Source of the DNA: a virus
IMG/VR virus record: IMGVR_UViG_3300042391_000634
Coordinates: 271,631 to 335,630 of that record
Strand: one strand, 5' to 3'
Length of the DNA stretch: 64,000 nt
Of the stretch, positions 5,039 to 60,870 are shown in pieces (position 1 is the stretch's first letter; the number at the start of each line of letters is the position of its first letter). Both the position numbers and the translations under genes were made by a program. A model generated the notes under the pieces. It had not been told where the DNA came from. It searched no databases and was given only the letters and a program-made list of their open reading frames with translations.

Positions 5039-6706
5039 ATGTATATAATAGGAATTTCAGCATTTTATCACGATTCATCTGTTTGTTTATTCAGAGATAA
5101 CCAATTAATATTTGCATGTGAAGAAGAGAAGTTCACAGGTATTAAACATGATGATTCGTTTCCAAAAAAAGCGTTGGAATATATCTACAAACAATATAAG
5201 ATAACACCAAAGAATTTACAGGCGGTTTGTTATTATGAAGACCCACAATTGAAATATCAAAGAGTAATGGAAAACATTAAACCTCAATGGTTTAAGAATC
5301 CATTATATTCATTAAAATCTTATTTGAAAATACGTAATAATGTAAAAGAGATTGATAAGAAATTAAAGGAGATTTGTTCCACCGTATTTTATTCAACACA
5401 TCACGAGGCTCATCAATATTATGCACATTATACATCACATTTTGAGGAGTCAACTTGTTTATCGGTTGATGGTGTAGGTGAGATTGATACCGTATCATTA
5501 GGTGTTGCCGATTATAATGGAATCAAATACAGTTCACTTGCAAAGTATCCACATTCAATGGGTCTTTATTACTCCGCATTAACCTCATATTTAGGGTTCA
5601 GACCAAACGAAGGAGAGTATAAGGTAATGGGATTAGCGTCCTATGGTGACCCCCAAAAGTATATTAAAGAGGTAAGAAACCTTATATCATTTAAATCAGG
5701 TAAGTTAGTATGTAATATGGATGTATTTTGTTGGAATAAGACAGATAAATCCATGTTCAATGAAAAACTTGCGGAACTATTAAGTGTTCCACAAAGATTA
5801 CCCGAAGAAACTTTAGAACAAACACACAAAGATTTAGCGGCCGCTGTTCAATTAAGATATGAGGAAGTATTGTTTGAAATTATTAAATCAATTAGACATG
5901 TAAGTAAAAGTCTAAACTTAACGTTGAGTGGTGGTTGTGCTTATAACGGAACCGCAAATGGTAAGATTATTGATAAGACACACTTTACACATCTTTGGAT
6001 ACCACCCGCACCATCAGATGCAGGATCAGCAATCGGTGCTGTTGTTCATTATTTAGTTAAAGAACGTAAAGTAAGGAGTAAAATTACAAGAAGTCCATTT
6101 TTGGGTCCTGAATATTATTACGATTATATTAGACGTGCAATTGGTATGAACAACTTTAAAAAATATGAATCTGAAAATAAATTAAGAACCCATATTGCTC
6201 AAAAAATATTTGAAGGTAAAGTAGTTGGGTGGTTTCAAGGACACATTGAATTTGGATCTCGAGCGTTAGGTAATAGATCTATTTTAGCTAATCCAACGTT
6301 TCCCGATATGAAAGATAGAATCAATAAGGTAATTAAAAAGAGAGAAGGTTTTAGACCATTCGCACCAATGGTTACTCAAGATAAACAACATCAATTCTTT
6401 GAAATGACGGATGATGTTCCATATATGAATCAAGTTGTTAAAGTTAAGGATGAATATAGAGACAAATTACCGGCGGTAACACATGTAGACGGTAGTGCTA
6501 GAGTTCAAACAGTTTATAAACACACAATGATACATGATTTATTAATCGAATTTGAAAAATTAAGTGGTTATCCAATTTTATTGAATACCTCATTCAATGT
6601 TAAAGATAAAACAATGGTATTAACACCAAAAGATGCCGTTGATACTTTCTTTGATACTGATATGGATATATTAGTAATGGGTAATTATGTTATGTATAAA
6701 AATTAA
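5039..6706 (+). CDS. NodU/CmcH-family carbamoyltransferase
   Basis: The protein is full length at 555 residues. The N-terminal domain has the FYHDSSVCLF start, the HHEAH motif at residues 121-125 and the VDGVGE segment. The C-terminal YrdC-like half has GSRALGNRSILANP and REGFRPFAP, followed by LLNTSFN. Known family: these enzymes move a carbamoyl group from carbamoyl phosphate, through an adenylate, onto a hydroxyl of a sugar or antibiotic. In this sugar island the acceptor is probably a glycan or nucleotide sugar. All key motifs look intact, so I expect an active enzyme. Confidence 0.88.
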   Translation: MYIIGISAFYHDSSVCLFRDNQLIFACEEEKFTGIKHDDSFPKKALEYIYKQYKITPKNLQAVCYYEDPQLKYQRVMENIKPQWFKNPLYSLKSYLKIRNNVKEIDKKLKEICSTVFYSTHHEAHQYYAHYTSHFEESTCLSVDGVGEIDTVSLGVADYNGIKYSSLAKYPHSMGLYYSALTSYLGFRPNEGEYKVMGLASYGDPQKYIKEVRNLISFKSGKLVCNMDVFCWNKTDKSMFNEKLAELLSVPQRLPEETLEQTHKDLAAAVQLRYEEVLFEIIKSIRHVSKSLNLTLSGGCAYNGTANGKIIDKTHFTHLWIPPAPSDAGSAIGAVVHYLVKERKVRSKITRSPFLGPEYYYDYIRRAIGMNNFKKYESENKLRTHIAQKIFEGKVVGWFQGHIEFGSRALGNRSILANPTFPDMKDRINKVIKKREGFRPFAPMVTQDKQHQFFEMTDDVPYMNQVVKVKDEYRDKLPAVTHVDGSARVQTVYKHTMIHDLLIEFEKLSGYPILLNTSFNVKDKTMVLTPKDAVDTFFDTDMDILVMGNYVMYKN

Positions 6707-16127: not shown

Positions 16128-16927
16128 AACCATTAAAATATTGGAAAAATGACACATTTGAAATATCATCATATCAATATAAATTGGAAGATAGGGTAAA
16201 TAAAAAATATCCCACATCTGGTTCGGATAATAGTGGTAAATGTCTTTATACTTACAATGAACTTGGTTTTAGAGGTGATAGTATTAAGAAACAAGGGTTT
16301 AAAGTAATGTCATTAGGTTGTTCAGTTACCGAAGGTGTTGGTGTAAATGACAATCAAACGTGGTCATCACAATTTGTAAATTTATTAACTAATGGGGTTG
16401 ATATGAATTTTGGTACAGGAGGTAGAAGTAATGACTTTATTTCGAGATGCTTATTATCATATTATGATATCATAAAACCAGATTTAGTTTTAGTTATGTA
16501 TACTTCACCAACTAGAAGAGAATATTATACCGAAAATAATGGAGTTGAACCATTTGTGGTTGGTAGTAAATGGGGTTGGTATGAACACCAAGAAGATGGT
16601 AGAAAGGCACATAAAATGTTATTTGAATTACAAAATGATAATGAAGATTTTATCAATTGGTATAAAAATCATTTATTAATTAAATATTTTTTAGAGTCTA
16701 AAGGTTGTAATTGGTTATGGAATGGTTGGTTTGACATACCAAAAGAATATGAAGAATTTAATAGATTTGATGGTGGTTATGAAAGATTTTTAGATTTAGG
16801 TGTAGATAATGGGCATCCAGGTCCAAACCACAATAAAACCTATGCACACAAACTACATGATTTTATAACAAAAAATTTCCCAAACTACATAAATAATTTA
16901 CCGAAAAATAAGCAAAATTTGATTTGA
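16124..16927 (+). CDS. SGNH-like hydrolase with N-terminal extension
   Basis: The 267-residue protein has about 55 residues before the catalytic domain, including NELGFRGD, a segment common just ahead of SGNH domains in exopolysaccharide enzymes. The blocks are SLGCSVTEGVG (Ser), GGRSNDFI (Gly/Asn) and DNGHPGPNHNK (His). The ATG overlaps the truncated oxygenase stop. It ends in QNLI and is followed by a 30-base gap with an AT-rich element before the long fusion gene. Confidence 0.7.
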   Translation: MKPLKYWKNDTFEISSYQYKLEDRVNKKYPTSGSDNSGKCLYTYNELGFRGDSIKKQGFKVMSLGCSVTEGVGVNDNQTWSSQFVNLLTNGVDMNFGTGGRSNDFISRCLLSYYDIIKPDLVLVMYTSPTRREYYTENNGVEPFVVGSKWGWYEHQEDGRKAHKMLFELQNDNEDFINWYKNHLLIKYFLESKGCNWLWNGWFDIPKEYEEFNRFDGGYERFLDLGVDNGHPGPNHNKTYAHKLHDFITKNFPNYINNLPKNKQNLI

Positions 16928-16957: not shown

Positions 16958-19693
16958 ATGAAAATACTTGCACACACATGTTTTATTGGAGTCACAGGAT
17001 ATGCTAATCACGCAAAGTCCTTTTTTTGTGCTCTGAACAAACACCACACCGTAAAAGTTAGAAATTCAACCATAGGTGGTGGTTGGAAGGGAATGAATAA
17101 CACCCCGCATGATAATGAACCTTACATCACAGATGAGATGAAGGATATGTTAATTCTTCAAACTCTTAATAATTCGGACGGTAGTAGGTCGGATTACCCA
17201 ATCTACGGATATAGCGGTGATTATAATACAGACGTTAATATTGTTTTGGTAGATACAAACAACCATTATTTCTATGACAATTATGTGGGGTATAATATTG
17301 CATATAACGTTTGGGAATCAACACGTTATCCCGATAATTTCTTTAAAAGATTACATTACTTTGACGAGGTATGGGTACCAACACAATGGCAATTTGATTG
17401 TTTGGTTGAACAGGGTTATCCATCACATAAAATATCGATAGTCCCTGAGGGAGTTGATGTGGATACATTTAAACCGTTAACTAAGACACCAAAGAAGGAC
17501 AAATTTAGGTTTTTACACTTTGGTAGATGGGATTATAGAAAAGGAACAACAGAGGTTTTAAGAGCGTTTAGTGAGACATTTAAAGATAGGGACGATGTGG
17601 AGTTAATTGCATCAGTTGAAAACCCTTATCCATTTGACGGACTTAAAACAACTGAAGATAGGGTTAAACATCACAATATAGACACAACGAACATTAAATT
17701 TATAAAATTCACACCACAGGAAGAATATGTAAAATATTTGCAAGAGGGTGATGTGTTTGTTTCATGTGCTAGAAGTGAAGGTTGGAACTTACCTTTAATT
17801 GAGGCAATGGCATGTGGAACACCTTCAATTTATTCCGATTGGGGGGGACAATTACAATTTGCAGAAGGTAAAGGTGTACCAGTTGGAATTAAAGGATTGA
17901 GACCTGCAAATATTGAGCATAAAGAATGGCCAGGTGAATATTGTGAACCAGATTGGGATGATTTGAAGTGGAAGATGAGACAGGCGTACGATTATAACAC
18001 GGCAATGTGGGTAAAGGCCGTTAGTGACGCAAAAGATATTCATGAAAAATTTAATTGGGATACGGTTGCAAAGGGAGCATGTGATATATTGGAAAGAAAT
18101 AAAAAACCATTTGCGTTTGTAACTACCGGTAACTTAGGATACATGCCGGTGATTGAAAAGTTAGTTCAATCATTATTAGAATTTTCTAAACGTAAGATTA
18201 TAGTATATGGTATTGATTGTGAGGTTCCATTTGATTATCCAAATATTATTAAAAGAACGATAACAACACAAAAGATATCTGAACATGATAAATGGTATTG
18301 GAAACAAATGGCATGTATTGAATCCGTTAATGAAGGGTTTGATAACTATGTTTGGATGGATGGTGATGTTGTCGTTAATTACAACGTAGATAATATCAAA
18401 TCTTATTTCAAAGAGATTGAAAACTATCCAATATCCGATATACATGTTCAAGAAGAATTCTTTGGTTGGTATGATGATGGAACTAAATCACAATTATTTA
18501 ATGAACGAGTTGCTGAAGATTGGGGAGTTCAAAAACAACAACCATATATGCATGTATGTATGTATGTTTATAATAAAGAATGTAAATGGTGGTTTGAAGA
18601 GATCCTTAATCATTATGTGGAAGTAATGAAAGATGGTGGTAAAGACTACAAACGTTTATACCTATGGAATGATGAAGGTATTGATAATGCAATGAGATGG
18701 AAATACAACTTTAAAAAACATTTACCACTATCTAATTTTGACACATCATCTTATGATGGTGATGACGGAATGACAAATGAGACACAACATCATTTCTTAA
18801 AGTTTTGGAATGAAGAAGGACCACAAAATTTCAATAGAATATTTGGATATCAAGCAATACCAAAAGATAAGAATCAAATTCTTTATTTCCACGGTAATAA
18901 GAATGCACAGATGTCCGATTTTATGATGGACTTTATTAAGATGAAACGTGATAATAGTTTTTACAAATCAGAACAATTTTATACATCGTTAGATGTTAAC
19001 ACATATAAGTTAGAGAACTTAGGTGACATCAAAGATGTACCGGGAGGTACTATGGAAATTGCAGATAAGTATGGATGGGCAAGAGCAATCTACCATGAAA
19101 TTTTTAATTTACATGATTACTATAAAGGTGGTAATGAAAGAAGAATAAATGAAGGTGATATTGTGGTGGACTTAGGTGGTAACATGGGTATCTTCAATAG
19201 GTGGGCATATCATCAAGGTGCGAGTAAAGTAATCTCATTTGAACCAGATAGACGATATTTTAAATTACTGTCACTTAACGCTGACCCACGTTCAGTATTA
19301 TTCAACGCAGCCGCGGCACATGAAATTGGAGAATTGAATTTATATGAGAGTAGTCACTTAGGTGGGTCAAATGTTTTTGGTGTTGAAGGTCAAGAAGGAT
19401 ATAGTGTTAAAACATATACTTTAAACTATCTTTTTGAAAGTGGTTTAATTGACCATATCGATTTTCTTAAGGTTGATATTGAAGGAGCAGAACATGCTGC
19501 ATTTGCTGGTATCAGTGATGAGAACTTACAAAAAGTTAAAACCATCGCAATGGAATATCATCATAGTCATTTTGAATACGATGAAGAATTAAGAACAAAT
19601 TTTATAAATAAAATGAATGGATTAGGGTTCAATTCATATCTATTATTTATGGGTAATAATAACAGTTTACAAATGATATATTTTTGGAAATGA
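16958..19693 (+). CDS. Three-domain fusion: GT4 glycosyltransferase, GT-A-like domain, FkbM methyltransferase
   Basis: At 911 residues this is the largest gene here. Residues 1-385 form a GT4/GT-B transferase (VPEGVDVDTFKP; FGRWDYRKG; ARSEGWNLPLIEAMACGTPS). Residues about 388-680 form a GT-A-like domain beginning FVTTGNLGYMPV and holding WMDGDVVV as its metal-binding acidic motif. Residues about 728-911 form an FkbM methyltransferase with VDLGGNMGIF, ISFEPDRR and VDIEGAEH. One protein could add sugars and O-methylate the product. The order of action and substrates are unknown. It overlaps the next gene by ATGA. Confidence 0.85.
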   Translation: MKILAHTCFIGVTGYANHAKSFFCALNKHHTVKVRNSTIGGGWKGMNNTPHDNEPYITDEMKDMLILQTLNNSDGSRSDYPIYGYSGDYNTDVNIVLVDTNNHYFYDNYVGYNIAYNVWESTRYPDNFFKRLHYFDEVWVPTQWQFDCLVEQGYPSHKISIVPEGVDVDTFKPLTKTPKKDKFRFLHFGRWDYRKGTTEVLRAFSETFKDRDDVELIASVENPYPFDGLKTTEDRVKHHNIDTTNIKFIKFTPQEEYVKYLQEGDVFVSCARSEGWNLPLIEAMACGTPSIYSDWGGQLQFAEGKGVPVGIKGLRPANIEHKEWPGEYCEPDWDDLKWKMRQAYDYNTAMWVKAVSDAKDIHEKFNWDTVAKGACDILERNKKPFAFVTTGNLGYMPVIEKLVQSLLEFSKRKIIVYGIDCEVPFDYPNIIKRTITTQKISEHDKWYWKQMACIESVNEGFDNYVWMDGDVVVNYNVDNIKSYFKEIENYPISDIHVQEEFFGWYDDGTKSQLFNERVAEDWGVQKQQPYMHVCMYVYNKECKWWFEEILNHYVEVMKDGGKDYKRLYLWNDEGIDNAMRWKYNFKKHLPLSNFDTSSYDGDDGMTNETQHHFLKFWNEEGPQNFNRIFGYQAIPKDKNQILYFHGNKNAQMSDFMMDFIKMKRDNSFYKSEQFYTSLDVNTYKLENLGDIKDVPGGTMEIADKYGWARAIYHEIFNLHDYYKGGNERRINEGDIVVDLGGNMGIFNRWAYHQGASKVISFEPDRRYFKLLSLNADPRSVLFNAAAAHEIGELNLYESSHLGGSNVFGVEGQEGYSVKTYTLNYLFESGLIDHIDFLKVDIEGAEHAAFAGISDENLQKVKTIAMEYHHSHFEYDEELRTNFINKMNGLGFNSYLLFMGNNNSLQMIYFWK

Positions 19694-22539: not shown

Positions 22540-24567
22540 ATGAAAATATTTGACGCAAACATCTCTGGATCACTAAACGTATCGGGCTCAGCCCATTTCT
22601 TTAATGATCTTACAGTAGACGGAACACTAAACGCCACCATCAGTGGAACATCCACAAACGCACTATCCTTAAACACAACGGGTTCCGCTCGTTTTGCTAC
22701 AACAGGTAGTAACGTATTTAAAGCCGACCAAACAATTAGCGGTTCACTTTATGTGACTACCGATATAATATTAAATGGACAATCATATACTGGACAAACT
22801 TCTGGTACATCAGGAACTAGTGGATCTAACGGTTCTTCAGGAACCTCAGGATCTAGTGGATCTAACGGTTCTTCAGGAACCTCAGGATCTAGTGGTTCAG
22901 ATGGTTCTTCAGGAACTTCAGGAACATCAGGTTCTTCAGGATCTAACGGATCTAGTGGAACATCAGGTTCTTCAGGATCTAACGGATCTAGTGGAACATC
23001 AGGATCTAGTGGTTCTAACGGTTCTTCAGGAACATCAGGTTCTTCAGGATCTAACGGATCTAGTGGAACATCAGGATCTAGTGGTTCTTCAGGAACATCA
23101 GGAACTAGTGGTTCTTCAGGAACTGCGGGTACATCAGGTTCTTCAGGTACCGTTACCTTATCAGGAACACAAGACAATGGTTTATTAACACTTAATGGAT
23201 CTTCTCCAAATGTGTCTGTAGAATCTAATTTAACATATGACGGATCTTTATTTAAGGTTAATTCAAACACAACAATTACAGGTTCATTGACCATTACCGC
23301 AAACTTAAACGTTTTAGGTTCTTCATCAATCACATATACTACTGCATCTCAATTAAGAGTAAATGATAATGTTATAACGGTTAATACCGCATCGCCAGGT
23401 GTAAGATTTGGTGGTTTATCTGTAATGGATAGTGGATCAAATAGTAGTACGGGATCTATATTTTGGGATTCATTAAATAACAGATGGGTATATCAACAAG
23501 AATCAGGATCATCTTACACAGGTGGTATCATAATGTCTGGTCCAAGAAACAATGGGGCTTTAGGAAGTGAAACTACTTTAACAAACAATAAAGTTGCAAA
23601 ATCTACGGGTGGAGATCATCTTGGTGATAGTAATATCAGTGACGACGGAACGACGGTTACAATTAGTACAAATACAGAAATTACAGGTTCATTAAAGGTA
23701 ACAAATGGTATCACAGGTACTTTAACAGGTAATATCACAGGTAATGCGGCAACGGTAACAACAAATGCTAACTTAACAGGTAATGTAACCTCAGTTGGTA
23801 ATTCAACGACAATAGCTGCGGGAGTTGTAACCGATTCAATGTTAGCTGGTTCTATATCAAACGCTAAATTAACTAACTCATCTGTAACGGTTTCGGCAGG
23901 AACAGGTATGAGTGGTGGTGGTGCGGTATCATTAGGTGGTACAGTGACATTAACAAACGCGGGTGTAACCTCAATCACAACAAATACAGGATTAAGTTCA
24001 AACGTAGGTGCAACAGGTGCGGTTACGATTACAAATACAATAACCAATAACAACCAATTAACAAATGGTGCGGGATATCTTTCAACCGCCGTAACCTCAG
24101 CAGTGGCTGGTACGGGTGTTGGGGTAAGTGCAGCAACAGGAGCCGTAACATTCTCAATCGGTCAAGCGGTAGCAACATCATCAAACGTTCAATTTAACTC
24201 ATTGGGTGTAGGAACTGCGGGACCAGTAACAGCAGGTTTAATCAGAGCAACAAATGATGTTATTGCGTTCTACGGTTCTGATGAAAGACTAAAAGAAAAC
24301 ATCACACCAATTGAAAATTCCTTAGATATCTTAAAACAAATAAATGGTTATTACTTCGATTGGAAGGAAATGCCAGGTATTCATGAGAACGAAGGTCATG
24401 ATATAGGGGTTGTAGCACAAGAAATTGGTGCTGTTTTACCTGAAATCGTAACAACAAGAGAGAATGGTTATATGGCCGTTAAATACGAAAAATTAGTTGC
24501 ATTGTTAATTCAAACAAACAAAGAATTATTAAATCGTGTTGAGGCTTTAGAAGCTAAAATAAAATAA
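22540..24567 (+). CDS. Collagen-like tail fibre with S74 intramolecular chaperone
   Basis: The 675-residue protein begins MKIFDANISGSLNVSGSA, an adaptor-like start. Residues 87-203 are about 39 Gly-X-Y triplets in which X and Y are nearly all Ser or Thr (GTS, GSS, GSN). A beta-rich region follows, with Thr/Asn/Gly repeats up to about 560. The last 96 residues are a peptidase S74 domain starting SDERLKEN (S580), with DIGVVAQEIG and YEKLVALLIQ, then a coiled coil. Known family: the chaperone trimerises the fibre and cuts itself off before that serine. The triplets should form a triple helix studded with hydroxyls. Confidence 0.9.
   Translation: MKIFDANISGSLNVSGSAHFFNDLTVDGTLNATISGTSTNALSLNTTGSARFATTGSNVFKADQTISGSLYVTTDIILNGQSYTGQTSGTSGTSGSNGSSGTSGSSGSNGSSGTSGSSGSDGSSGTSGTSGSSGSNGSSGTSGSSGSNGSSGTSGSSGSNGSSGTSGSSGSNGSSGTSGSSGSSGTSGTSGSSGTAGTSGSSGTVTLSGTQDNGLLTLNGSSPNVSVESNLTYDGSLFKVNSNTTITGSLTITANLNVLGSSSITYTTASQLRVNDNVITVNTASPGVRFGGLSVMDSGSNSSTGSIFWDSLNNRWVYQQESGSSYTGGIIMSGPRNNGALGSETTLTNNKVAKSTGGDHLGDSNISDDGTTVTISTNTEITGSLKVTNGITGTLTGNITGNAATVTTNANLTGNVTSVGNSTTIAAGVVTDSMLAGSISNAKLTNSSVTVSAGTGMSGGGAVSLGGTVTLTNAGVTSITTNTGLSSNVGATGAVTITNTITNNNQLTNGAGYLSTAVTSAVAGTGVGVSAATGAVTFSIGQAVATSSNVQFNSLGVGTAGPVTAGLIRATNDVIAFYGSDERLKENITPIENSLDILKQINGYYFDWKEMPGIHENEGHDIGVVAQEIGAVLPEIVTTRENGYMAVKYEKLVALLIQTNKELLNRVEALEAKIK
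22798..23150 (+). repeat. Tandem repeat encoding Gly-Ser/Thr-Ser triplets
   Basis: About 39 nine-base units alternate around GGATCTAGT, GGTTCTAAC, GGTTCTTCA and GGAACATCA. Longer blocks of 45 to 60 bases recur almost exactly, for example around 22910-22990 and 23020-23080, as expected from recent slippage or unequal recombination. The repeat also opens long frames in other reading phases that are not genes. Confidence 0.9.
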
Positions 24568-39524: not shown

Positions 39525-41456
39525 ATGGAAGAAATATTACTTTATCAACGATACTCTTACGCAAGGATAACCCCGTTTAAGAACTATTCTAAGTTCCCAA
39601 GAGTAGACATACCTCATAGTGGTATACATAAACAAGTGTCATATGAAGATATCAAGTATGGTGGTAGTATGGCCACTGAATATTATGACGGGAATAGTGG
39701 AGTCCCAATATCACCACTAACAGATGAAATTAAGAAGAAAAAAACAAGATTTTTTTATTGGGATGATGAGTATAAAAATCCTCCGATTATTAGGTACGCA
39801 TCCACTCATAAACTAAATGGAATAATAGGGGAGTTTTATACCACAAAAGATAGACACATCAAGAAATACTATAACGAACCTCTTAGTGAAATATCGGTTC
39901 ATATTATAGAGAGGTCAGTAATAAAAAGAGGTGATAAGGTTACCATTAAAATAAATAAATTTACAAAATGTAGAGGATTTAACTGTAAGTATTTTAAATC
40001 AAACAAATGGGCATCATCGGTTACTTTTGATATGGTTAAAGGAGATTTTTTATTGGTTAATAGTAGTAAACACGGTAAAACCAAAACCACACCTCGATTT
40101 AGAAAGAATGGATTTCAACAACTTGACAATTTTATAGACAGTAGTGATGGACCATTTAAGTTTTTGAGAAATCATTTAAGTAAAAATAATCCATTGTATA
40201 ATGAATTAAAAAATAATTTTAAAGATAAAGAATTTAACGAGGTGTTGAGTAAAGTGTTTAATATTAATTTTCCAACAGACGGGTTATTATTTAAAACTAT
40301 GTTTTATGACGAAGTAATGAGGTGGTTTATTAATACCAAAAAAATAAAGATACCAAATGACTATAAAAAACTATTGGTTCATTATTACCCAACAGAAAAA
40401 TACTTAAAGAAAAACGATAGAAAATTAATTGCATCAGTATTAGATGTTTATCAAATAAAATCTAAAGTAACAATAAAACTATTACACGAGAAACCTAATA
40501 TTGATTTAGGTTCTTTATATATGTTATGTTATTTGTTTGGTAATAACTATCAAAAATATATTGGTTCCATAAATAAAGATTTATTTGGGACAACATCCGA
40601 TAACGATAAGGGACATTTAATTGGAGCATCATCATTAAAATTGATGGAAGATATACGTGACAGAATTAAAAATCATGGATACGACATATCGGATATTGAA
40701 AAAGAAAATTTATTATCAGTATTAACAATAAATCCAGAAAGAGGAGTATCTGTCAATGAAAATTTTATGGGTTTAGTAATGGATCATTTTAAGATGTTAG
40801 ATAAAATTAGAGAATATGACAGTAACATTAGAATGAGGGCGACCACCTCAATTAAATTCCATACTGAACATAACGAATTATCTAGAATGATATCAGCAAT
40901 TAAAAAGGGTTGGGTCATTCAATATTCCTATCCTGAAGAAACGGTGAGACAAATACAACAACCAATTAGTTGTGAGAAAAAAAGTGAGTTGTGGAAACAC
41001 AATAGTAATGGTATCAAAGAACTCATCACCACAGTAAGTGATGGTGAGATAATGATATACCCATACGTTCTAACAAGAGAAGAGGAATACATTGAAGAAG
41101 GTAGGTTTATGCATCACTGTGTTGCATCATACGCGGAGACAGAGACATCAATCATTGTATCATTGAGGACTGAAGACAAACAAGATAGAGTTACGTGCGA
41201 GTTTAAAATATCTGATGGAAGAATGACACAATCAAAATATTTCTCAAACGCACAACCACCAAAACATTATCAAAATGCAATAGATGGTGTAAGTGATTTG
41301 ATTAGAATACATGCAAGATTTGGAACACTCAATTGGTTAAAGAAAGATAGGGTTCCAGTTATGATAAATGGAGTTGAAATTGCACCAGAAATGAGAGAAC
41401 CAAGAAGATTGATTGATATTTTAGATTTAGATGATGATTTACAGTTACTATTTTAA
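39525..41456 (+). CDS. PcfJ-like protein
   Basis: The 643-residue protein has a C-terminal segment YVLTREEEYIEEGRFMHHCVASYAE, then ITSIIVSLR-type strands and YFSNAQPP, the PcfJ-domain pattern (PcfJ is a plasmid pCF10 transfer-region protein of unknown biochemical role). The E-G-x-x-M-x-H-C-V core is fully present. The N-terminal 450 residues are unassigned. It has a paralogue immediately downstream and its own Bacteroidota-type promoter. Confidence 0.65.
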   Translation: MEEILLYQRYSYARITPFKNYSKFPRVDIPHSGIHKQVSYEDIKYGGSMATEYYDGNSGVPISPLTDEIKKKKTRFFYWDDEYKNPPIIRYASTHKLNGIIGEFYTTKDRHIKKYYNEPLSEISVHIIERSVIKRGDKVTIKINKFTKCRGFNCKYFKSNKWASSVTFDMVKGDFLLVNSSKHGKTKTTPRFRKNGFQQLDNFIDSSDGPFKFLRNHLSKNNPLYNELKNNFKDKEFNEVLSKVFNINFPTDGLLFKTMFYDEVMRWFINTKKIKIPNDYKKLLVHYYPTEKYLKKNDRKLIASVLDVYQIKSKVTIKLLHEKPNIDLGSLYMLCYLFGNNYQKYIGSINKDLFGTTSDNDKGHLIGASSLKLMEDIRDRIKNHGYDISDIEKENLLSVLTINPERGVSVNENFMGLVMDHFKMLDKIREYDSNIRMRATTSIKFHTEHNELSRMISAIKKGWVIQYSYPEETVRQIQQPISCEKKSELWKHNSNGIKELITTVSDGEIMIYPYVLTREEEYIEEGRFMHHCVASYAETETSIIVSLRTEDKQDRVTCEFKISDGRMTQSKYFSNAQPPKHYQNAIDGVSDLIRIHARFGTLNWLKKDRVPVMINGVEIAPEMREPRRLIDILDLDDDLQLLF

Positions 41457-56531: not shown

Positions 56532-56765
56532 ATGAATGTAATTATCACTGAAAATCAGTATGTTAGATTGGTTGAAAACTATTGGGATAGGGAAAAACTA
56601 TATGATAGGAAGAAAATAGTCGAAAGATTAAAAAAAGGACCATCATATATAAAACAATATATTAAAAAATTACCTCATATAGAAATGCAAGACGATCAGG
56701 GTAATATCCTGATTGCAACCAAAATACCTCAAACTATTTACCAATATCTATTTGGTAATTTTTAA
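56532..56765 (+). CDS. Small protein (77 aa), possibly packaged
   Basis: The product begins MNVIITENQYVRLVE, a strand plus helix ending in L-V-E, which fits an (L/I)-x-E cleavage site, followed by a basic helical part. Short ITExQ-x-x-RLxE starts are, from memory, common on late proteins of Bacteroidota T4-like phages. It ends before a strong Bacteroidota-type promoter. Confidence 0.5.
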   Translation: MNVIITENQYVRLVENYWDREKLYDRKKIVERLKKGPSYIKQYIKKLPHIEMQDDQGNILIATKIPQTIYQYLFGNF

Positions 56766-56772
56766 AACATTT

Positions 56773-56803
56773 TTTGGAATATCCTAAAAATACACTATCT
56801 TTG
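56773..56803 (+). promoter_or_regulatory. Bacteroidota-type promoter (TTTG-N19-TATCTTTG)
   Basis: TTTG at 56773-56776 and TATCTTTG at 56796-56803 have a 19-base spacer, an exact consensus match. It drives the DnaA-domain gene starting at 56821. Confidence 0.65.
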
Positions 56804-56820: not shown

Positions 56821-57219
56821 ATGAGTAAAAAATCAGTTTCAATTAGTCCATATTCATTTCCTGGACTTAGGTTATCACAAAGAGAGAAGGAGAGTTTTAA
56901 GAATTCACAAAGGTCATTAAGGTTTAGAATAACTAAGGATGAAATTTTACAGATTATCGCTTATGAATGTTCGGTATCGGTTACCGATATTGTGACAAAA
57001 ACAAGAAAAAAAGAAGTGGTTAACGGACGTTTCATATTCTGTGGTATCATGAAAGAATACTTTGGTTATTCTTTAAAAAAAATTGGCGAGTTTGTTGGGG
57101 GTCGTGACCATACAACTATAATCCATTCAGTTGAAAAATATCACGATAGATATCAAAATGAAGAACATTATAGGTTTTTAGTAAATAACATTTATAATAA
57201 AATAGGAATAACAAAGTAA
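56821..57219 (+). CDS. Orphan DnaA domain IV protein
   Basis: The 132-residue protein has a basic N-terminal tail of about 35 residues, then the DNA-binding domain of DnaA: DEILQIIAYECSVSVTDI, TRKKEVVNGRFIFCGIMKE and GGRDHTTIIHSVEKY (signature GGRDHTT at residues 93-99). The AAA+ ATPase domain is missing. Known: this helix-turn-helix binds DnaA boxes at replication origins. Alone it could compete with host DnaA, mark a phage origin or act as a repressor. It has its own host-type promoter. Confidence 0.85.
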   Translation: MSKKSVSISPYSFPGLRLSQREKESFKNSQRSLRFRITKDEILQIIAYECSVSVTDIVTKTRKKEVVNGRFIFCGIMKEYFGYSLKKIGEFVGGRDHTTIIHSVEKYHDRYQNEEHYRFLVNNIYNKIGITK

Positions 57220-57220
57220 T

Positions 57221-57766
57221 ATGAAAACGTTAATTATACATCCGGCCGATCCGAGCACATTTTTTTTAGATATTGTTTATGAATCAGTGCAAGATAAAAC
57301 ATTAATTACTGGTGGAGTATCTAAAGGAGATTTAATTAGATTAATTGATGAACATGATCGTGTTATGATGATGGGTCACGGCAGTCCGGCTGGACTTTTT
57401 TCAGTGGGTCAATTCAAGAATGTTGGGGCATATATTATTGACCAATCAATGATACCTTATTTAAAACAAAAAGAGAATAATGTTTACATATGGTGTAATG
57501 CCGATAAATTTGTTGACGTATTTGGATTAAAGGGATTTTATTCTGGTATGTTCATCAGCGAAGTAGGTGAGGCAAACTATTGTGGTTTACCAGGTATGAG
57601 TCAAGAAATTGTTGACGAATCTAACTATGGGTTTTGTAATATTATTGCAAAATATATTAATGAAAACAAAGAACTTATACATGAAAATGTTAAGAAAGAG
57701 TATGGTCTTATTGCCGAATCAAATCCTGTGGCACTTTATAACAATAATAGATTATATAAAGCTTAA
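57221..57766 (+). CDS. Conserved protein with His and Cys motifs, caspase-like candidate
   Basis: The 181-residue protein starts KTLIIHPADPSTFFLDIVYE, then has RVMMMGHGSPAGLF and VYIWCNADKFV. A His-Gly strand end followed by a Trp-Cys strand end is the arrangement of the catalytic dyad in caspase/CHAT-fold peptidases, so I suggest that fold; I cannot confirm it. Near-identical family members seem, from memory, to exist in Bacteroidota as small hypothetical proteins. It follows the DnaA-domain gene by one base. Confidence 0.45.
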   Translation: MKTLIIHPADPSTFFLDIVYESVQDKTLITGGVSKGDLIRLIDEHDRVMMMGHGSPAGLFSVGQFKNVGAYIIDQSMIPYLKQKENNVYIWCNADKFVDVFGLKGFYSGMFISEVGEANYCGLPGMSQEIVDESNYGFCNIIAKYINENKELIHENVKKEYGLIAESNPVALYNNNRLYKA

Positions 57767-58980: not shown

Positions 58981-59331
58981 ATGTTTAATTATTATAAAAT
59001 ATTCTTAGGAATATTATTTGGGATTATAGGGCAAACCGGAACTTTCTGTCAATTACAAGTTTCTTACAAGTATGGTTGGTATGATAGATATCCTTGGTTA
59101 GTTATACTAGCAAGTGTTCCTTTAGGGTGGATTTATATCCTATCCGTTAATAACTTTATAGAAGGTTTTGGAGGTCAAATATGGCCATCAAGGTTGGTTG
59201 GTTTTGGGGTTGGTGTAATAGTATTCACTCTTATGTCACATTTCCTATTTAAAGAGCAATTAGACCTTAAAAATGGTATATGTTTAGGTTTAGGACTCAC
59301 AATAATACTCGTACAATTATTTGTTAAATAA
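58981..59331 (+). CDS. Four-span membrane protein, DMT/EmrE-like
   Basis: The 116-residue product has four hydrophobic segments, beginning IFLGILFGIIGQTGTF and ending GICLGLGLTIILVQLF. Size and topology match small multidrug-resistance/DMT half-transporters, which work as dimers. The EQLDLKNGICLGLGLT end is typical of DMT proteins. It opens the SGNH array and could export or flip a small substrate. Assignment by topology. Confidence 0.5.
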   Translation: MFNYYKIFLGILFGIIGQTGTFCQLQVSYKYGWYDRYPWLVILASVPLGWIYILSVNNFIEGFGGQIWPSRLVGFGVGVIVFTLMSHFLFKEQLDLKNGICLGLGLTIILVQLFVK

Positions 59332-59338
59332 TAAATTT

Positions 59339-60103
59339 ATGGCGACATTATTTGGATTCGGTGATAGTTTTACCGGCGGACATTTTTTAGATAAAGACTT
59401 TGAACCATATAAACAGTGGAAGGAGTATAGGGGAGGAGATTTACCACCAGTGTGGATAGATTTATTAGGTGATAAACTTAATATGAATGTTATAAACTAT
59501 GGACATGGGGGTAACTCAAATCAAGAAATATTTGAAACAATATGTAACAACTGTTATCAATTTAAAAAAGAGGATATTGTTATAATTAACTGGACTGAGA
59601 TACATAGATTTAGATGGGTCGCATATGGTAATTATAGGGCTCCCGAAGGTATTTTTAATGTAGATTATTGGAGAAGAATATCTGCCGCTTCTGATGATAG
59701 TGAAGAAATTAAGAACCAAACAAAAATGGATATTATTCAAAATAGATCTTCTTATTTGTATATTGAAGAGATCTATAATTATGAAAAAATTATAGATCAA
59801 CTATCAAAATCAATTGGATTTAATGTTTTCTATTGGTCTGGTGATAGTGATATTATTTACAGATTACCGTCAGATAAATTAAAACAAAAGAAATATATTA
59901 TTAATGATTTAATATCTAATATTACAGAAAATCCCCCCAACATCTTTAGATTAGGTGGTATTTTCTTTGATACAATAAAACATTACGGTGGGTTAATAGT
60001 TAAAGAAGAAACAAATGAAAATTGTACCGATACACATTTAGGAGAAAGTGGACATAGAGTTCAATTTGAATTATTTTATAATTATATTATAAAAAATATT
60101 TAA
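59339..60103 (+). CDS. SGNH/GDSL-like hydrolase (array copy 1)
   Basis: The ATG at 59339 begins MATLFGFGDSFTGGHFL; an upstream frame start overlaps the previous gene and is less likely. The 254-residue protein has GHGGNSNQEIF (Gly/Asn), IVIINWTEIHRFRW and DTHLGESGHRVQFE (Asp, His). RGGDLPPVW is shared with 2963 (RGGNLPPVW) and 62243 (RGGNLPLCW). It ends IIKNI like the copies at 2963 and 60103. Confidence 0.75.
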   Translation: MATLFGFGDSFTGGHFLDKDFEPYKQWKEYRGGDLPPVWIDLLGDKLNMNVINYGHGGNSNQEIFETICNNCYQFKKEDIVIINWTEIHRFRWVAYGNYRAPEGIFNVDYWRRISAASDDSEEIKNQTKMDIIQNRSSYLYIEEIYNYEKIIDQLSKSIGFNVFYWSGDSDIIYRLPSDKLKQKKYIINDLISNITENPPNIFRLGGIFFDTIKHYGGLIVKEETNENCTDTHLGESGHRVQFELFYNYIIKNI

Positions 60104-60870
60104 TGAGTACATTATTTACATTTGGTTGTAGTTTTAGTGAGGAATTTAGTGTTCTATTACCAAGAACATCCCCCAATACAAGAGTTGACTATATTGAACA
60201 ATACTTTAATGGTGTTGCACCAGATTCATGGCCTACGATGTTATCTAAAAAGTTAGGATTTGATATTAAAAATTATTCAGGTAATGGGGGGTATAAAGAC
60301 CCAATAAATAACATAGGTGAAGGTAATTGTAATCAATCGGTATTAAACAACATCGCATATTATTGTAATCAGTTTAAGAAAGGGGACATTGTTATTGTTG
60401 AATGGACGTATATTGAAAGGTTTAAATGGGCGAACGAAACAGGTAAGTCAATGATATCTGTTTATCCCGCGTTTGTTCCTGGTACTGGAATACCTGATTA
60501 TCCAGATTACATCGATAATAACACAGCGGAGAACATATTTGTTAATAGAACAAATCCAATATGGATTAATGAATTATTCATTCAACAGAAACTATTAAAT
60601 CAATTTGCAGATAATACAGGATTTAATATATTTTATTGGACTGTAGATAATAATATTATAAATTATAAGAATAAAGAAATTAAAAATGATAAAAAGTATT
60701 TGTTATCAGATACGTTGGGTGAAAGAGATTATATGAATTTATTTAAAGAAGAAGGTGCTAAAACAATAATAGAAGAAACAAACGAAAAAGTCAGAGATTG
60801 GCATTATGGTGTAACGGGTCATCAGGTTCAATGTGATTTGTTTTATAACTATATTATAAAAAATATTTAA
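60103..60870 (+). CDS. SGNH/GDSL-like hydrolase (array copy 2)
   Basis: The 255-residue product has FGCSFSEEFS (nucleophile), a longer glycine block GNGGYKDPINN, IVIVEWTYIERFKW and DWHYGVTGHQ. It shares the VNRTNPIWINE and YNYIIKNI segments with its neighbours and overlaps both by one base. Clearly a tandem paralogue. Confidence 0.75.
   Translation: MSTLFTFGCSFSEEFSVLLPRTSPNTRVDYIEQYFNGVAPDSWPTMLSKKLGFDIKNYSGNGGYKDPINNIGEGNCNQSVLNNIAYYCNQFKKGDIVIVEWTYIERFKWANETGKSMISVYPAFVPGTGIPDYPDYIDNNTAENIFVNRTNPIWINELFIQQKLLNQFADNTGFNIFYWTVDNNIINYKNKEIKNDKKYLLSDTLGERDYMNLFKEEGAKTIIEETNEKVRDWHYGVTGHQVQCDLFYNYIIKNI

Follow-up and report, generated by a model that had tools for sequence, protein, structure and literature searches.

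Asp433 and His434 of the replication initiator DnaA make base contacts with DNA. According to a review, Arg399 reads the TTA part of the DnaA box in the minor groove, the helix 434–451 reads the rest of the box, and the variants T435M and R399A show a binding defect (PMC5742627). Phage proteins that consist of DnaA domain IV alone are already annotated. Flavobacterium phage tooticki6-1, Olleya phage Harreka_1, the Pelagibacter phages HTVC035P and HTVC010P and Rhizobium phage RHph_N28_2 encode this domain without the AAA+ domain, and in several phages such proteins are labelled "DnaA" or "replication initiation" despite the missing ATPase. A search of the open PubMed Central literature returned no report that a domain IV encoded alone by a phage acts on promoters, which is weak evidence.

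The 64 kb stretch of DNA that was analysed, referred to as the window, forms the final part of a virus record of 335,630 bp and contains the gene described here. Coordinates are those of the window unless given as record positions. The locus comprises the following features:

56532..56765, plus strand: small upstream ORF of 77 aa, with a counterpart upstream in locus L002
56774..56803, plus strand: putative Bacteroidota-type promoter, TTG-19-TATCTTTG, assigned by consensus; elements in 14 of 20 homologues
56821..57219, plus strand: gene for the stand-alone DnaA domain IV protein, 132 aa, the only DnaA_C match of the 335,630-bp record
56842..56871, plus strand: N-terminal motif ISPYSFPGLR (residues 8–17), family form ISPYxxPG(I/L)K, from the alignment of 20 homologues
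56938..57138, plus strand: Bac_DnaA_C (domain IV) part, residues 40–106, from PF08299, fold and residue check
57221..57766, plus strand: conserved gene immediately downstream, candidate for a caspase-like protein, from 76 related loci and a fold model

In the ORF list of the window, the reading frame 56821–57219 begins with ATG and encodes a product of 132 aa. Residues 40–106 match positions 2–68 of the 69 positions of the Bac_DnaA_C profile (PF08299, E 4.3e-19), that is, nearly the whole profile, with 68.7 bits against a curated cut-off of 31.5. The preliminary description of this DNA had called the protein an orphan, complete DnaA domain IV with the GGRDHTT signature (here residues 93–99) and without the ATPase and oligomerisation domains, and the profile searches confirm this. 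The NCBIfam model of full-length DnaA aligns with its last 106 positions alone and reaches a score of 69, its cut-off being 343.9; because the alignment is C-terminal only and far below the cut-off, domains I–III are absent. The protein thus has neither the AAA+ ATPase domain III nor the domain I of a DnaA replication initiator, and as domain IV alone in a virus record it belongs to the stand-alone phage DnaA_C class.

An AlphaFold2 model built from 20 phage homologues agrees with the E. coli crystal structure 1j1v, in which domain IV is bound to a DnaA box, with a TM-score of 0.92 by target length and an rmsd of 1.2 (mean pLDDT 79; about 90 in the domain and about 50 in the first 30 residues). 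In E. coli numbering, R399, R407, K415, R432, D433, H434, T435, T436 and H439 are kept, and R398T, R401K, Q408F and P423K are changed. The preliminary description had named substitution of the key base-contacting residues as grounds for giving up its reading; because the equivalents of R399, D433, H434 and T435 are kept, these grounds fall away. Among the 20 homologues, H434, T435 and R407 are present in all 20, D433 in 19 and R399 in 16. In one group of four family members Asn occupies the R399 position, which counts against a regulator that reads DnaA boxes. From the contact residues and the predicted fold we infer that the 132-aa protein probably binds DnaA boxes. Ahead of the domain, the ISPYxxPG(I/L)K motif is as invariant as the DNA-contact residues (Y11, P14 and G15 in 20/20 homologues, I8 in 19/20, S9, P10 and K17 in 18/20); it lies in the low-confidence region of the model, and we found no name for it. 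An intact DNA-contact surface without domains I–III would also suit a protein that, having no ATPase, occupies the boxes of the host oriC and blocks chromosome initiation, a role raised in the preliminary description. By itself, such a shut-off of the host gives no account of the invariant N-terminal motif and leaves the promoter-linked boxes in phage genomes (see below) unexplained, and we consider it quite improbable.

The host-type promoter that had been placed before the gene is likewise in agreement with the sequence. TTG at 56774 is followed by a 19 bp spacer and by TATCTTTG at 56796–56803, 17 bp before the ATG, an arrangement which we take to be the Bacteroidota promoter consensus. TAnnTTTG occurs within 50 bp upstream of the gene in 15 of the 20 homologues, with TTG 19–20 bp before it in 14/20; in the five homologues without TAnnTTTG the gene starts, by reading, close behind the upstream reading frame. 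Because of the promoter type, as judged by this consensus, and because Flavobacterium and Olleya phages are among the distant matches, the host is probably a member of the Bacteroidota. An exact DnaA box is absent from the promoter of the gene, which counts against a regulatory role at boxes. The spacer of this promoter contains a GGAATAT(T/C)C-like palindrome that recurs in several homologues, and related GAATATTC elements stand beside boxes at record positions 16682 and 40255.

A direct search returned one relative, G001, whose protein is 76% identical. The neighbour gene 57221–57766 has 76 related loci, of which 30 carry a DnaA_C gene by local profile, mostly directly upstream; whole-record searches of related records found the domain in 26/50 and 7/27. 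The product of the neighbour gene contains an invariant GHG (H53) and WCNAD (C92), and its fold model (pLDDT 97) gave weak matches to caspase-4, gingipain RgpB, the Craspase TPR-CHAT protease and other folds, none with E <0.001. We regard it as a candidate caspase-like protease encoded in at least 76 phage loci. Records that share the gene at record position 40623 are without DnaA_C (0/8, and none in a ninth record, G086). A single-sequence query of bacterial genomes found no relative of the 132-aa protein; a profile search found 80 loci with at most 43% identity, in which the alignment never begins before query residue 8 and in most cases not before residue 16. DnaA_C matches from unannotated faecal clones named "Bacteriophage sp." were rejected as phage relatives, since the six that were translated are long or full-length DnaA and probably bacterial DNA. 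Elsewhere in the window, short GGATCTA repeats occur at 22822–23074 within ORF 22540–24567, which matches tail fibre families. Neighbouring ORFs at 59321–60870, starting FGFGDSFT and FTFGCSFS, are apparent paralogues of a GDSL-like family with more copies in L002, and Nol-like carbamoyltransferase and glycosyltransferase-methyltransferase genes at 5039–6706 and 16958–19693 point to sugar decoration by the phage.

The scan for clustered DnaA boxes that the preliminary description had recommended found no exact TTATCCACA in the window, and boxes with at most one mismatch number 33 there against 34.6 expected. The whole record holds 10 exact boxes, eight of which lie at 16.7–48.9 kb, i.e. within 32 kb (placement p 1.5e-5), about half of them intergenic. 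The preliminary description had also suggested that the protein might define the phage origin. An origin near the gene was rejected, given the lack of exact boxes and of any one-mismatch excess in the window. A tight cluster like that of an origin is not supported either, since most boxes of the record are scattered over 32 kb and several of them are directed at promoters. Across related records, box density is 75 in 3.14 Mb for gene-bearing and 26 in 2.99 Mb for gene-less records, with 47 and 40 in the respective control text.

As to features of an oriC-type origin, the record shows only an inverted box pair at record 40255/40270, flanked by divergent operons, one leftward and one rightward. 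The protein could mark a phage origin, for example at this pair, and recruit replication proteins via its N-terminus. The position of the pair between divergent operons would fit, as would the occurrence of inverted pairs in 4/50 records, all gene-bearing, against none in control text, and the boxes beside AT-rich intergenic DNA in G013, G014 and G017. However, inverted pairs are confined to two lineages (the comparison with gene-less records gives p 0.12, with records taken as independent), and one box at 40255/40270 is also compatible with a promoter at a distance of 39 bp. The change of GC skew at the pair (record 39–40 kb) was rejected as evidence of an origin, since in almost every segment sampled the skew goes with the direction of the genes. 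Because it has no ATPase, the phage domain IV cannot open an origin as DnaA does. We judge a role as origin factor very improbable. Operons related to those at the pair occur in G014, G032 and L087, and the leftward operon begins with a homologous gene that has boxes just upstream in both G000 and G032, although these phages are only 33% alike there, which favours a regulator at promoters. Nine related loci with the gene at record 40623 (L012–L020) contain no TTATCCACA, and the inverted pair is not conserved there. At 198–202 kb of record G000 (L162) GC skew is -0.12 though the long ORFs are all on the plus strand, opposite to the trend elsewhere. At 22–40 kb of G000 (L003, L004), outside the window, TTGTTTGGC is present in 27 copies (0.81 expected) and TGTAATACG in 15 (0.6 expected); both lie mostly between leftward genes and form an unexplained repeat or operator family.

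TGTGGATAA followed by TAnnTTTG after 22–52 bp gave 19 matches in 7/50 records, compared with 3 in reversed text and 5 in the opposite orientation. Nine of these matches belong to record G060 and four to the phage's own record; without G060 the comparison is 10 against 5, and of these 10 the two from G031 and G032 have a single sequence in common, which may be coding. In the phage's own record four boxes, all in one orientation, face a TAnnTTTG 22–39 bp downstream, at distances of 39, 39, 30 and 22. Within a 46 kb region of the phage 4/8 boxes show the promoter pattern, at a chance of 2.6% each (p 2.9e-5). Three of the four box promoters lack TTG at the usual distance, and 4/9 boxless promoter-like upstream regions have it. 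In G060, a 53 kb fragment, a box stands at 38–40 bp in 10 of 14 promoter-like upstream regions, and several of its promoters have a second box 11 bp further up, at 50. The box promoters of G060 are copies of one another, which counts against a regulator. The box-promoter distances recur with a period of about 10 bp (28 distinct distances, R 0.52, leaving out the two L375 sites used to find the period), with p 3.5e-4 at 10.0, 1.5e-3 at 10.5 and 0.02 at 11.

In the whole viral collection, before any promoter filter, matches at 39–40 bp (at least 118) hardly differ in number from those at 44–45 bp (94), which counts against a regulator. A full promoter with a gene start is present in 26/120 at 39–40 bp against 3/94 at 44–45 bp (p 7e-5), and after dereplication in 13/81 against 2/60 (p 0.024). 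A stand-alone DnaA_C protein occurs in 8/117 loci of the 39–40 bp set against 1/94 of the 44–45 bp set (p 0.045), the eight representing about five lineages. Fixed orientation and helix-phased distances upstream of promoters are features of activator-regulon sites, and a minority of the records contain such putative sites. The statistics on orientation, spacing and clustering speak against boxes that are unrelated to the gene, as chance or host-derived leftovers; the promoter pattern is absent from most gene-bearing records, as such leftovers would have it, and we nevertheless give this explanation very little credence.

Among the 50 records (one of undetermined status), a box-promoter site was found in 6/28 gene-bearing and 0/21 gene-less records (p 0.03), a figure that, like the other by-record comparisons, treats records as independent and ignores their kinship. 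The 22/28 gene-bearing records without such a site, many of them fragments, count against a regulator, as does the closest relative, G001, in which seven exact boxes are mostly intragenic and none matches the promoter pattern. The 53 kb of G060, with the largest box-promoter array, contain no DnaA_C gene. G001 and G060 thus oppose a strict link; both are probably fragments. Host DnaA is present at phage entry. The boxes might be read by host DnaA, which would then activate early phage promoters as the phage enters, with the phage domain IV later displacing it and switching these promoters off. Host DnaA may be the reader because DnaA is known to activate as well as to repress and acts in ori-lambda transcription (PMC8203912). 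The promoter set alone fits the phage protein and host DnaA alike, and the array of G060, on a fragment that has no DnaA_C gene, would suit the latter. Among records of known status, however, box promoters occur in gene-bearing ones only, and we regard this scenario as rather unlikely.

Overall, the sequence data suggest control of transcription at phage promoters rather than blocking of the host origin or marking of a phage origin. We propose, with a probability of roughly 0.48, that the 132-aa protein is a phage-encoded DnaA-box transcription regulator of early or accessory phage promoters, most likely an activator. Host RNA polymerase would transcribe the gene from its host-type promoter, and the helix-turn-helix of the product, with its conserved contact residues and fold, would bind TTATCCACA boxes. 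In a few phages such boxes lie in one orientation, and apparently on one helix face relative to TAnnTTTG, upstream of accessory and presumably early promoters. Placed about 39 bp above TAnnTTTG, a box would lie in the zone bound by activators that touch RNA polymerase. The bound protein, perhaps via ISPYxxPGxK, could then contact RNA polymerase or another factor, and this contact would help promoters that often lack the -33 TTG. We further speculate, more in doubt than in confidence, that in large Bacteroidota phages the DNA-reading domain of DnaA has become a dedicated activator with a helix-phased DnaA-box regulon, that ISPYxxPGxK contacts the transcription machinery, and that at phage promoters the phage thereby competes with the host initiator or imitates it. 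If the product indeed runs a set of phage promoters, labels such as "DnaA" or "replication initiation" mislead about its function. A recurrent phage regulator would gain a list of targets, and phage transcription would be tied to the replication control sites of the host.

Compared with DnaA domain IV (PF08299, 1j1v), the phage protein has the fold, the helix-turn-helix and the contact residues in common; it differs in standing alone, in the four changed positions and in its own N-terminal motif. The stand-alone DnaA_C proteins of the Flavobacterium, Olleya, Pelagibacter and Rhizobium phages are less than 60% identical to it in every matching record, and the ISPYxxPGxK start is absent from all five that were translated. 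The conserved N-terminal motif, the syntenic large-phage family and the promoter-linked boxes are, as far as we have seen, new parts. YfdR of an E. coli cryptic prophage is likewise a phage-derived interference with DnaA, but by the title of the paper it binds the DnaA protein and not DnaA boxes (PMC4776307). Full-length DnaA as a transcription factor (nrdAB, dnaA, ori-lambda) likewise reads DnaA boxes near promoters (PMC8203912). That factor is the cell's own and is switched by ATP, whereas here a phage protein without ATPase would act at several phage promoters from boxes in a fixed orientation.
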